Shown here piece by piece: positions 37,160 through 41,583 of a stretch of DNA of 64,000 bases; within the stretch, counting starts at the first letter, position 1; every line of letters starts with the position of its first letter. Made by a program: the position numbers and the translations under genes. The notes beneath the pieces were generated by a model that was not told where the DNA came from, searched no databases, and saw nothing but the letters and a program-made list of their open reading frames with translations. The DNA is from Bacteroidota bacterium (GTDB lineage Bacteria > Bacteroidota > Bacteroidia > NS11-12g > UBA955): the NCBI GenBank assembly GCA_018333525.1, contig JAGXTF010000118.1, forward strand, positions 248,001 through 312,000, given 5' to 3'.

Positions 37160-38458
37160 ATGCCGTATTTTTTTACCTCAGAATCCGTATCCGAAGGACA
37201 TCCAGATAAGGTAGCCGATCAGATTTCCGATGCACTCATCGATAATTTTCTCGCTTATGATGCAGAAAGTAAGGTTGCTTGTGAAACACTCGTCACCACT
37301 GGTCAGGTTGTACTGGCTGGAGAAGTGAAATCCAGAGCTTATCTCGATGTTCAGGAAATTGCAAGGGAAGTGATTCGCAAAATTGGATATACCAAAAGCG
37401 AATACATGTTTGAGGCAAATTCTTGCGGAATCTTTAGTGCCATACACGAGCAGAGCTCCGATATCAATCAGGGTGTAGACCGCAAAAAGCGAGAAGAACA
37501 AGGTGCCGGAGATCAGGGTATGATGTTCGGTTATGCTTGTAATGAAACGGACAATTACATGCCAATTTCCATCAGCATAGCACATTTGCTGTTGCATGAA
37601 CTTTCTGATATCCGCAGGGAAGGCAAAAAAATGAAATACCTGCGCCCGGATGCCAAAAGCCAGGTTACCATTGAATATTCAGACGATCACAAACCCATGC
37701 GCGTGGATACCATTGTAATTTCCACCCAGCATGACGATTGGATAAAACCAAAATCTGCTAAGGCTTCGGATATTAAAAAAGCCGATGATGCCATGTTATT
37801 GGCCATACAGGAAGATGTGAAGAAAGTATTGATTCCAAGAGTGCTGAAAAAACTTCCCAAGCGTGTGCAGAATCTTTTTGGGAAAGACATTTTGTTCCAT
37901 ATCAATCCAACCGGAAAATTTGTAATTGGCGGACCGCATGGGGATACCGGATTAACCGGTCGCAAGATTATTGTGGATACTTATGGCGGTAAAGGAGCTC
38001 ACGGCGGTGGTGCATTCAGTGGCAAAGATCCCAGCAAGGTGGATCGCAGTGCGGCGTATGCAACCAGACATATTGCAAAAAATCTTGTAGCAGCGGGTGT
38101 ATGCGATGAAATTCTGGTTCAGGTTTCTTATGCTATAGGTGTTGCAGATCCGGTTGGTGTTTATGTAAATACTTACGGCACTTCCAAAGTAAAAATGCAC
38201 GACGGACAAATTGCGGATACCATTTTAAAAATGAAAGAATTCAGCCTGCGTCCTTACGAAATTGAAAAGCGTTTTCAACTGCGCACGCCTATTTATCTCG
38301 AAACTGCAGCTTACGGGCATATGGGAAGAAAATCTGAAACTGTAACCAAAGTCTATAACAAGGGCAAGGAGAATGAAATAACCGTGAAGGTAAAGCTATT
38401 CCCCTGGGAAGAATTAAACGCCACAGCCGCCGTTAAAAAGGCATTTGGGTTGAAATAA
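37160..38458 (+). CDS. metK: S-adenosylmethionine synthetase
   Basis: [94 protein letters not shown]. Confidence 0.97.
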
Positions 38459-38484: not shown

Positions 38485-38532
38485 GTCGTTGGTCCTCGTG
38501 CCATGCTGGCGAAGCGCATGGCGACCAACGAC
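38485..38532. repeat. Long imperfect palindrome (17-bp stem with 5-nt bulge, 9-nt loop)
   Basis: GTCGTTGGTC[CTCGT]GCCATGC-TGGCGAAGC-GCATGGCGACCAACGAC downstream of metK. Confidence 0.8.
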
Positions 38533-38641
38533 CTCTTACTTTGCGTTTATATGATAATTGCGAAAATGGGAAATCACCAGATAAATAACAATTACTAAGG
38601 ATTTGCAAGTGAACCAAGGAATGCACTAAATTCCTGAAATG

Positions 38642-38664
38642 GAGCTCCGTAGGAGCGATATCTT
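38642..38664 (+). repeat. REP-like hairpin plus tail unit
   Basis: gagctcc-gta-ggagcgatatctt; 5-bp stem GCTCC/GGAGC then GATATCTT. Confidence 0.75.
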
Positions 38665-38690
38665 CTAATTTTTACTAAGAGCAAAATCTA

Positions 38691-38715
38691 AGCGCCATGG
38701 GCGCGACATATCTTG
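38691..38715 (+). repeat. REP-like hairpin plus tail unit
   Basis: agcgcc-atg-ggcgcgacatatcttgt; stem GCGCC/GGCGC then GACATATCTTGT. Confidence 0.75.
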
Positions 38716-38751
38716 TTTCTTAATATATTGATACAAAGATATCACAGGTTT

Positions 38752-39213
38752 TTATTCAGGTTCTTTAAATAAATAATCCGAATGAAAATCGATATTATGT
38801 TCCACAAGCAACTGCAGATATTCTTCCAGAAATATTGTTTTTCCATGGTGTTTTTCCTGATCCTGTACATACCTTACCAAGGTGTCCATTTGGGAATATC
38901 CAAAGGTAAATGCACCAAAGCCTACCTGCCACTCAAAGCGCCTCTTAGTTAGGTTTCGTTGGTTAATAAATCTGGAAGAATTTGCCTTGATATCCCGCAC
39001 GATATCGGATAAGCATATATCGGGTTTTTGTCCAATCAAAATATGCAGATGATCTGGCATTCCATTGATGGCAATTATTTTTTGTTTCTTATTATTTGTA
39101 ATTCCACAAATGAATTTATACAATTCCACTTTCCATTTTGGTGAAATAAGTGAAGCTCTGAATTTTACTGTAAGTATTACATGAAAATATAATTGGGTGT
39201 AAGTATTTGCCAT
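38752..39213 (-). mobile_element. Y1/REP-associated tyrosine transposase-like protein (IS200/TnpA_REP superfamily)
   Basis: MANTYTQLYFHVILTVKFR, INGMPDHLHILIGQKPDICLSDIVRDIKANSSRFIN (HxH), FEWQVGFGAFTFGYSQMDTLVRYVQDQEKHH (catalytic Tyr region). Confidence 0.93.
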
Positions 39214-39280
39214 AATAAAAAATGAGAATTTAATTAAATAAATTTAGCTTTCGAAGCTACGAAGTAATGAATAAGCAAGT

Positions 39281-39298
39281 CGATTTTAATCGGATATA
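39281..39298 (+). repeat. Possible degenerate REP-like unit
   Basis: cgatt-tt-aatcggatataa; stem CGATT/AATCG followed by GATATAA. Confidence 0.35.
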
Positions 39299-39390
39299 AT
39301 CGATTATTTTAGGCTAATGTGTGAATTAGAAATATATGGAGAAATCGGAATGTGGTCTTCCTGAGACATATTACTGGTATGGTAAAGTAT

Positions 39391-39412
39391 ACATATATCG
39401 CTGCGATGCAGC
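39391..39412 (-). repeat. REP-like hairpin plus tail unit, inverse orientation
   Basis: Minus strand reads gctgc-atc-gcagcgatatatgt; stem GCTGC/GCAGC then GATATATGT. Confidence 0.7.
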
Positions 39413-39493
39413 TATGCATCAATCATTAAAATATTAGACATAGAAAATGCATTTCAATTAATTTAATAAAATTAGATTGAAATGATCCAATCT

Positions 39494-39518
39494 GAGCACC
39501 GTAGGTGCGATTTCTTGT
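39494..39518 (+). repeat. REP-like hairpin plus tail unit
   Basis: gagcacc-gta-ggtgcgatttcttgt; stem GCACC/GGTGC then GATTTCTTGT. Confidence 0.75.
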
Positions 39519-39718
39519 AATATCTAAAATATAAAGTACGCTATAGGATAATTGCTAAATCACCCTCAACAAAGCAATTCAGTGCAGAAAGCACCGTCGA
39601 TTCGAAATGTCTTGCAGAATACGCAAATCCAATATAATCTCGCCTCCTAAAACCACATTATTCCTTGCATGTGGATTTCATATGCGCCATGGCTTGAGGG
39701 AAACCCGCCTTTTCCTTG

Positions 39719-39741: not shown

Positions 39742-41583
39742 ATGTGCGGAATTGTTGCTTACATCGGGGAAAAAGAAGCTTTCCCCATTTTAATAAAAGG
39801 GCTTAAACGACTGGAATACCGCGGCTACGATAGTGCCGGGGTTGCATTGATGGATGGCACCATGCATGTTTATAAACAGAAAGGCAGGGTTGCGGAACTG
39901 GAAGCCACAATTCATGAAAGCCAGAGAATTGGAAATATCGGAATGGGTCATACACGCTGGGCTACACATGGTGTACCTAATGATGTAAATGCACACCCAC
40001 ACCAAAGTCAAAGCGGAGACCTCGCTGTGATTCACAATGGAATAATAGAGAACTTTCACACCCTGAAAGAAGGCTTACTTCAACGCGGGCACCATTTTAC
40101 CAGCGATACAGATACCGAAGTTCTTATTCATCTGATTGAAGATATCATGAACAATGCAAACCTCAGCCTGCAAGAAGCTGTGCGTGTTGCTCTCAAACAG
40201 GTTGTGGGCGCCTATGCCATTGTAATCATGTCCAAAAACCATCCGGAACACCTGATTGCTGCTAGAAAAGGTAGTCCGTTGGTGGTAGGTATCGGGGCAG
40301 ATAGAGGCGAATTTTTCCTGGCCAGCGATGCTACACCGATTGTAGAATATACCCGCCAGGTAATCTATTTGAATGATGGTGAAATTGCCATTATAGAAAA
40401 TCAGGAACTCACCATCAAAACCATCGACAACCAAATTCAAACTCCCTATATCGTAGAGTTGGAAATGAATTTGGAACAATTGGAAAAAGGCGGATACGAG
40501 CACTTTATGCTCAAGGAAATATACGAACAACCCAAATCCATACATGATAGTTTTCGTGGCCGTATAGAGCCTATGTCGGCGGAAATTCACATGCAGAGCA
40601 TTCGCGATTATGGCGACAAATTAAAAAACATCAACCGCCTGATTTTAATAGGCTGCGGAACAAGCTGGCATGCCGGACTGGTGGCTGAATATCTTTTTGA
40701 AGAATATGCGCGCATTCCTGTAGAAGTGGAATATGCTTCAGAATTCCGTTACCGCAATCCCGTATTGTATCCGGATGATTTGGTAATTGCAATTTCACAA
40801 AGTGGTGAAACCGCAGATACATTGGCAGCAATGGAACTCGCTAAATCTAAAGGGGCAACAGTTTTTGGAGTGTGTAATGTGGTGGGAAGCAGTATCCCAC
40901 GCATGAGTCATGCCGGCGCATACACCCACGCGGGTCCGGAAATTGGAGTAGCGAGTACCAAGGCATTTACTGCACAGGTGACGGTATTATCCATCATCGC
41001 TATTGCCATGGCAAAATTGCGTGGTTCCATGGGGAGCGATAAAATTCGCAGCCTGATGTATGAACTGGAAAGCATTCCGGAAAAAGTGGAAAAAGCACTT
41101 TTACTCAACGATGAAATTATTAAAATAGCAGAATTATATAAGGATTCCGGAAACTTCCTCTACCTGGGTCGTGGATACAATTTCCCGGTGGCATTGGAAG
41201 GTGCATTAAAATTAAAAGAAATCAGTTATATCCATGCCGAAGGATATCCTGCAGCTGAAATGAAACATGGTCCAATCGCACTTATTGATGAAGAAATGCC
41301 GGTGGTTGTTATTGCAACCAATAGCGCACATTACGAAAAAGTAGTGAGCAATATTCAGGAAGTAAAAGCGAGAAAAGGTAAAATTATCGCATTGGTTACA
41401 GAAGGAAATACTGCTCTTAAAAATATGGCAGATCATATCATAGAAGTTCCCGCCACTGAAGAGAGCCTGAGTCCTTTGATCAATACGGTTCCTTTGCAAT
41501 TACTCAGTTACCATATTGCGGTAATGCGTGGATGCAACGTAGATCAGCCCAGGAATTTGGCGAAAAGCGTTACCGTTGAATAG
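39742..41583 (+). CDS. glmS: Glutamine--fructose-6-phosphate transaminase (isomerizing)
   Basis: MCGIVAYIGEKEAFPILIKGLKRLEYRGYDSAGVAL, GHTRWATHGVPNDVNAHPH, two SIS domains, C-terminal QPRNLAKSVTVE. Confidence 0.98.
   Translation: MCGIVAYIGEKEAFPILIKGLKRLEYRGYDSAGVALMDGTMHVYKQKGRVAELEATIHESQRIGNIGMGHTRWATHGVPNDVNAHPHQSQSGDLAVIHNGIIENFHTLKEGLLQRGHHFTSDTDTEVLIHLIEDIMNNANLSLQEAVRVALKQVVGAYAIVIMSKNHPEHLIAARKGSPLVVGIGADRGEFFLASDATPIVEYTRQVIYLNDGEIAIIENQELTIKTIDNQIQTPYIVELEMNLEQLEKGGYEHFMLKEIYEQPKSIHDSFRGRIEPMSAEIHMQSIRDYGDKLKNINRLILIGCGTSWHAGLVAEYLFEEYARIPVEVEYASEFRYRNPVLYPDDLVIAISQSGETADTLAAMELAKSKGATVFGVCNVVGSSIPRMSHAGAYTHAGPEIGVASTKAFTAQVTVLSIIAIAMAKLRGSMGSDKIRSLMYELESIPEKVEKALLLNDEIIKIAELYKDSGNFLYLGRGYNFPVALEGALKLKEISYIHAEGYPAAEMKHGPIALIDEEMPVVVIATNSAHYEKVVSNIQEVKARKGKIIALVTEGNTALKNMADHIIEVPATEESLSPLINTVPLQLLSYHIAVMRGCNVDQPRNLAKSVTVE

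Follow-up and report, generated by a model that had tools for sequence, protein, structure and literature searches.

A probable REPtron-like system of short hairpin units around a TnpA_Y1 subclass 1.2 transposase in Bacteroidota

A Y1-type transposase gene surrounded by short hairpin repeats in both orientations raises the question of whether gene and repeats belong to one system, and of whether such a system is an ordinary insertion sequence or one that works like the REP elements. We addressed this for a locus in a window of 64,000 nucleotides (the whole stretch of DNA analysed) from a Bacteroidota genome of 3.7 Mb in 118 contigs.

A Y1 transposase gene among four hairpin units

The gene lies between neighbours readable as S-adenosylmethionine synthetase (ending at 38458) and glucosamine-6-phosphate synthase (starting at 39742). 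A sequence-only reading had placed four hairpin units around it, and all four are present at, or no more than 2 bp from, the positions it assigned, each with a 5-bp stem and a 3-nt loop:

38643..38668, (+): unit 1, A + GCTCC-gta-GGAGC + tail GATATCTTCTAA, hairpin from 38644; outer unit on the gene 3′ side, facing the gene (covariance model E = 2.2e-5)
38691..38716, (+): unit 2, A + GCGCC-atg-GGCGC + tail GACATATCTTGT, hairpin from 38692; inner unit, facing the gene (E = 0.0067)
38752..39213, (-): intact Y1/HUH transposase gene, 153 aa (Pfam Y1_Tnp E = 2.8e-27)
39388..39413, (-): unit 3, A + GCTGC-atc-GCAGC + tail GATATATGTATA, hairpin at 39412; gene 5′ side, facing the gene (E = 0.0014)
39495..39520, (+): unit 4, A + GCACC-gta-GGTGC + tail GATTTCTTGTAA, hairpin from 39496; gene 5′ side, facing away (E = 0.0022)

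Units 1 and 2 are 48 bp apart and both face the gene from its 3′ side, and units 3 and 4 stand back-to-back on its 5′ side, unit 3 toward the gene and unit 4 away from it. Against the whole 3.7 Mb genome each unit reaches E = 2e-5 to 7e-3 with a covariance model whose training set included these four. A fifth unit, offered earlier as a weaker candidate at 39281 (CGATT-tt-AATCG), was rejected; it has a 2-nt loop and gives no model match up to E = 3. Separately, a long imperfect palindrome (CGTTGGTC...GACCAACG) occupies 38487-38532, between the SAM synthetase gene and unit 1, and falls outside the unit family.

The protein passes the NCBIfam IS200 model NF033573 (72.2 bits against a cut-off of 55) and fails the curated model for REP-associated transposases, REP_Tyr_transpos NF047646 (38 bits against 80). 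Among solved structures, the family profile matched the TnpA proteins of ISDra2 and ISHp608 (E 1e-16 to 1e-14), and REP transposases gave no match up to E = 0.01; the transposase sequence itself matches ISDra2 TnpA at E = 7.7e-16. Its motif residues are the HUH pair H55/H57, WQ at 95-96, Y115, Q119 and HH at 122-123, and in an alignment of 26 relatives H55, H57, W95, Q96, Y115, Q119 and H123 are invariant, with H122 nearly so. The motifs read YVQDQEKHH, FEWQ and DHLH, the last with L in place of the I/V of DH[IV]H. Judged by its Y---Q--HH, WQ and DH[IV]H-like motifs, and not by a tree, the protein is of the TnpA_Y1 subclass 1.2 type. The label RAYT-like, given from the sequence, thus needs dividing: the REP-like working it implied is seen in multi-copy intergenic units that occur in both orientations and are linked to the gene, whereas the protein is no RAYT, as it fails the RAYT model, is IS200-type and carries the subclass 1.2 signature.

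The genome holds five transposase copies that are mutually 30-49% identical, which is unlike a recently spread insertion sequence. On the 3′ side of one paralogue (L033:800-1450, contig C60) the hairpins belong to another family, in which AATCCC-gaa-GGGATT + TATATGTTCTTAAAAAA is paired with CGACCC..GGGTCG; further copies of it are found on contigs C43, C88 and C90. Among the loci compared, L010:997-1319 holds a tandem defective copy of the transposase gene whose middle is swapped for unrelated sequence; a MITE (gene-deletion derivative) adjoining L010 was considered and rejected, the tandem copy with its replaced middle not being a clean MITE.

A common unit design across relatives

A common design was found in Bacteroidota, Ignavibacteria, Verrucomicrobia, Poribacteria and others: an A, the 5-bp hairpin, GRYAT, and T(A/G)TAG exactly 9 nt past the hairpin, with units pointing inward from both sides of the gene in steps of about 50 bp. 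The 3-nt loops include GTA, GAA and ATA, the conserved tail across relatives is GRYAT-N-TTT-RTAG, and T(A/G)TAG at +9 is present in many outer units. On the 5′ side of the hairpin, column information is near zero apart from the A at -1. A layout of outer hairpin, GRYATNTTTRTAG, about 20 nt, inner hairpin, gene and then the mirror image is repeated at several loci (e.g. L111, L114, L127 and L130). The idea of a conserved tail as a possible recognition signal holds in kind, with GRYAT and T(A/G)TAG at +9 as the constant part. The tail originally proposed, GAYATNTCTTGT, is a local variant and was replaced as a general signal, the string alone not being enriched in the window; shuffles contain GATATATCTTGT with up to two mismatches at least as often as the window does.

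The 300-bp flanks of 31 orthologous or paralogous genes from the same order contain 37 strict units, whereas shuffles average 0.44 and never exceed 4, and 49 kb of more distant control DNA holds 2. We extended the comparison to 80 relatives from named genomes, mostly of Bacteroidota, together with Ignavibacteria, Verrucomicrobia, Poribacteria, Acidobacteria and Neomarinimicrobiota. Generic 3-nt-loop hairpins occur in their flanks at 5.7 per kb versus 0.56 in control DNA, with two or more flank hairpins in 64 of the 80 and fewer than two in the other 16. Strict units in these flanks point inward in 120 cases and outward in 20, and 38 were counted in 252 kb of control DNA. The hairpin-to-hairpin distance peaks at 48-51 bp near genes and is 48-53 bp in dispersed arrays.

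Hairpin and tail also predict each other, in two selections neither of which selects for the feature then reported. When units were picked by the hairpin only, T[AG]TAG began at +9 in 49 cases and at any other offset in three at most, and the GRYAT foot emerged as well. When sites were picked by the tail only, the preceding 13 nt were fully paired in 28 of 42, compared with a mean of 10.4 and a maximum of 16 for shuffled arms. The covarying stems and conserved tail noticed at the window locus are borne out by these paired sites and by compensatory stem changes among the units of relatives; both-sided changes occur in all five stem pairs, although, as these units had been pre-picked for pairing, this shows variety and is not proof. 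Between loci, unit similarity follows protein identity (Spearman 0.41, permutation maximum 0.21), a correlation that shared ancestry alone could also give. One divergent gene relative (G002, L038:1200-1460 and 2170-2190) has a different, longer palindrome on both flanks (GCTCAAGGC-gtt-GCCTTGAGC).

Units co-occur with the gene across genomes

Three or more units were found in 16 of 22 genomes with the gene and in 5 of 35 without it (57 relatives, p = 1.3e-5). A second model, trained on the named genomes only, served to survey the class; of 247 genomes at least 90% complete, 142 carry the gene. Three or more units occur in 80 of these 142 and in 3 of the 105 gene-free genomes (p = 2e-21), and the model matches at most two sites in each of the other 62 gene-bearing genomes; per-genome counts near 29 in this survey mean at least that many. 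The link runs in the same direction in 17 of 19 families (p = 7e-4), a within-family comparison that draws its gene-free genomes from among those listed, where ones with matches are over-represented, so that its bias is against the claim. Gene-free genomes seldom hold units, so the outcome that would have counted against a link, units equally common where the transposase is missing, did not occur. Three near-complete genomes (G116, G122 and G258) bear 3-12 units with no subclass 1.2 gene detected; they may have lost the gene or use a more distant enzyme.

Units away from the gene and their turnover

In the genome of the window, the covariance model, from which the copy counts are taken, matches 20 sites at E ≤ 1; these fall into several hairpin types, and few are close copies of the four units. 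Among them are a three-unit array 104 kb from the gene (C118:182300-182424) and hairpins of other types, close to another paralogue and at other sites. A pattern search of this genome with GCNCCGTAGGNGCGA returned only 3 matches, the pattern being too narrow. Since the model search finds further copies outside the locus, the units are not confined to it, an outcome that had been raised as possible.

A dozen sites spread over the chromosome of G110, a single-contig genome, carry units. Often these are two-hairpin ends paired back-to-back in the order inner-outer-outer-inner, the reverse of that around the gene. Intergenic placement, which had been put forward for checking, was confirmed in 40 stretches from eight genomes, where 121 of 145 units lie outside ORFs though 79% of the DNA is ORF. 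Dispersed units take the form of singles, direct arrays and back-to-back pairs.

Comparison of related genomes, proposed as a way to find empty sites, gave a partial answer. One G110 composite, which matches at least 8 other places in G110, is absent from the orthologous spacer in both sister species, the spacers being otherwise not identical. A second G110 site has no conserved far flank. In relatives of G036 and G047 the flanks are too diverged or full of other repeats, and none of these comparisons yielded an empty site with precise, clean ends. Array length differs at orthologous gene sites (L012/L016/L018 and L144/L160), for which replication slippage could be an alternative source. In G036 a 53-bp unit stands alone on several contigs and the gene survives only as a weak trace.

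Other repeats were seen in the same genomes. G036 has a dispersed repeat of ~330 bp next to a unit (L193:1922-2250), with copies on three or more further contigs. A palindromic repeat of very high abundance, ending GTAGAGACGCAAT/ATTGCGTCTCTAC, is found at L194:1740-1810 and many sites in G042, G044 and G047 and resembles a canonical GTAG REP family. A ~30-bp repeat at L237:2271-2300 has many copies, genus-wide, at many sites in G069, G110 and G295.

Discussion

We regard as probable a REPtron-like system with a TnpA_Y1 subclass 1.2 protein at its core, in which the transposase would recognise the units and spread them as single-stranded DNA. In this model, whose chemistry we infer, the gene product would act as a Y1/HUH single-strand-DNA endonuclease on units of about 50 nt, each a 5-bp hairpin with a 3-nt loop, a GRYAT foot and often T(A/G)TAG. 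The hairpins would be extruded on single-stranded DNA such as the lagging-strand template, bound by the enzyme and cut at or near the CTAYAAA motif. Units freed in this way may be re-inserted in trans, giving solitary units, direct arrays of about 50 bp and back-to-back pairs.

On the opposite strand a unit reads 5′-CTAYAAANATRYC-hairpin-T, with the foot directly 5′ of the hairpin and the second motif upstream. Substrates of IS200/IS605 and REP systems generally have this arrangement, with a tetranucleotide-like foot 5′ of the hairpin and a motif upstream; in both, as established for IS608 and E. coli TnpA_REP, the foot guides the enzyme to its site of cleavage (background in PMC6006769, PMC8266576). 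By analogy, TRYC may serve as the guide and CTAYAAA as the region of cutting, and successive cuts in an array may fall one step, about 50 nt, apart. The window tails, which on the opposite strand read ACAAGATATGTC and TTACAAGAAATC before the hairpins, fit this scheme loosely.

An ordinary autonomous IS200-type insertion sequence, with the hairpins as its left and right ends, would account for a protein nearest to IS200/IS605 TnpA, for hairpins at both ends of the gene, and for loci L010, L100 and L102, which share the element only and differ in their flanks. We nevertheless consider it unlikely. IS200/IS605 ends lie on one strand, whereas the ends here are inverted two-hairpin modules on both strands; the gene copies are few and divergent, and the units far more numerous (1-5 genes versus up to 77 units per genome); and orthologous gene sites are retained across species (L012/L018 and L144/L160/L169). 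It is less probable still that the units are an unrelated repeat family collecting in gene-free spacers, with the transposase a mere neighbour. The units are indeed intergenic and the genomes hold other palindromic repeats too, but inward orientation and distance to the gene are fixed across phyla, the units are enriched ten-fold over other DNA of the same loci and rare in gene-free genomes, and unit sequence correlates with protein sequence. Least probable, by a slight further step, is a role as RNA (terminators, attenuators or mRNA stabilisers for the transposase transcript or its neighbours), which would suit short foldable hairpins closely flanking genes but not units without a U-run, in a region with no Rfam family above threshold, whose GRYAT and RTAG at +9 stand on one strand upstream of the gene and on the other downstream of it, as the inward excess indicates, so that a single transcript would hold two different RNAs.

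The REPtron-like reading can be set against known systems. As in the class 2 RAYT/TnpA_REP systems (REP, BIME, REPIN), one or a few genes accompany many short intergenic hairpins that are gene-linked, species-specific in sequence and found in single, paired inverted and arrayed forms. In contrast to them, the protein here is on the IS200 side, with Q--HH and without the class 2 NP motif, and the units have no 5′ GT[AG]G guide, carrying instead a GRYAT foot (TRYC on the other strand), a 5-bp stem, and two-hairpin ends with the RTAG motif in steps of about 50 bp. IS200/IS605 TnpA (IS608, ISDra2) provides the nearest solved structures and has the same catalytic residues, whereas there is no multi-copy near-identical element here, the ends are inverted two-hairpin ones and gene-free units are dispersed. 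Class 3 TnpA_Y1 proteins have REP-like high-copy hairpins and were described as between IS and REPtron (PMC6006769); they resemble the present case in these hairpins and in a Y motif related to class 1, but have a CnGA foot, occur in other phyla and differ in the Y motif itself.

Subclass 1.2 was described as carrying Y---Q--HH, with no REP and generally no terminal hairpins (Quentin 2018; PMC6006769). The present proteins agree with it in the DH[ILV]H, WQ and Y---Q--HH motifs, a length of about 150 aa, few divergent copies per genome and occurrence in Bacteroidota; they differ in that units accompany most of the members sampled, including those from outside Bacteroidota and Cyanobacteria. The automatic search in that study accepted a hairpin only if its basal stem reached 7 bp and its 5′ foot was GT[AG]G (PMC6006769), rules under which 5-bp units would have gone unnoticed. 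The hairpins found here thus call for a revision of the subclass 1.2 description rather than for exclusion from it. We found no published description of such units in the open-licence literature searched, and one may exist elsewhere.

For a branch of Y1 transposases on record as lacking a DNA substrate, these units are a candidate substrate with a clear sequence grammar, in a class where more than half of the genomes sampled carry the gene. If so, many unexplained intergenic hairpins in Bacteroidota and other phyla would tie to one enzyme family. We put at even chances the broader proposition that class 1 (IS200-side) transposases have a REP-type amplification of their own, independently evolved or ancestral, with its own grammar of 5-bp hairpin, TRYC foot, CTAYAAA cut-site motif and steps of about 50 nt. 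If true, such a system would be a second REP world that has gone unrecognised, frequent in Bacteroidota and extending to several other phyla, and would mark a step from insertion sequence to domesticated REP transposase. A system that stands between insertion sequences and REP/RAYT offers a way to ask how a transposase becomes domesticated.
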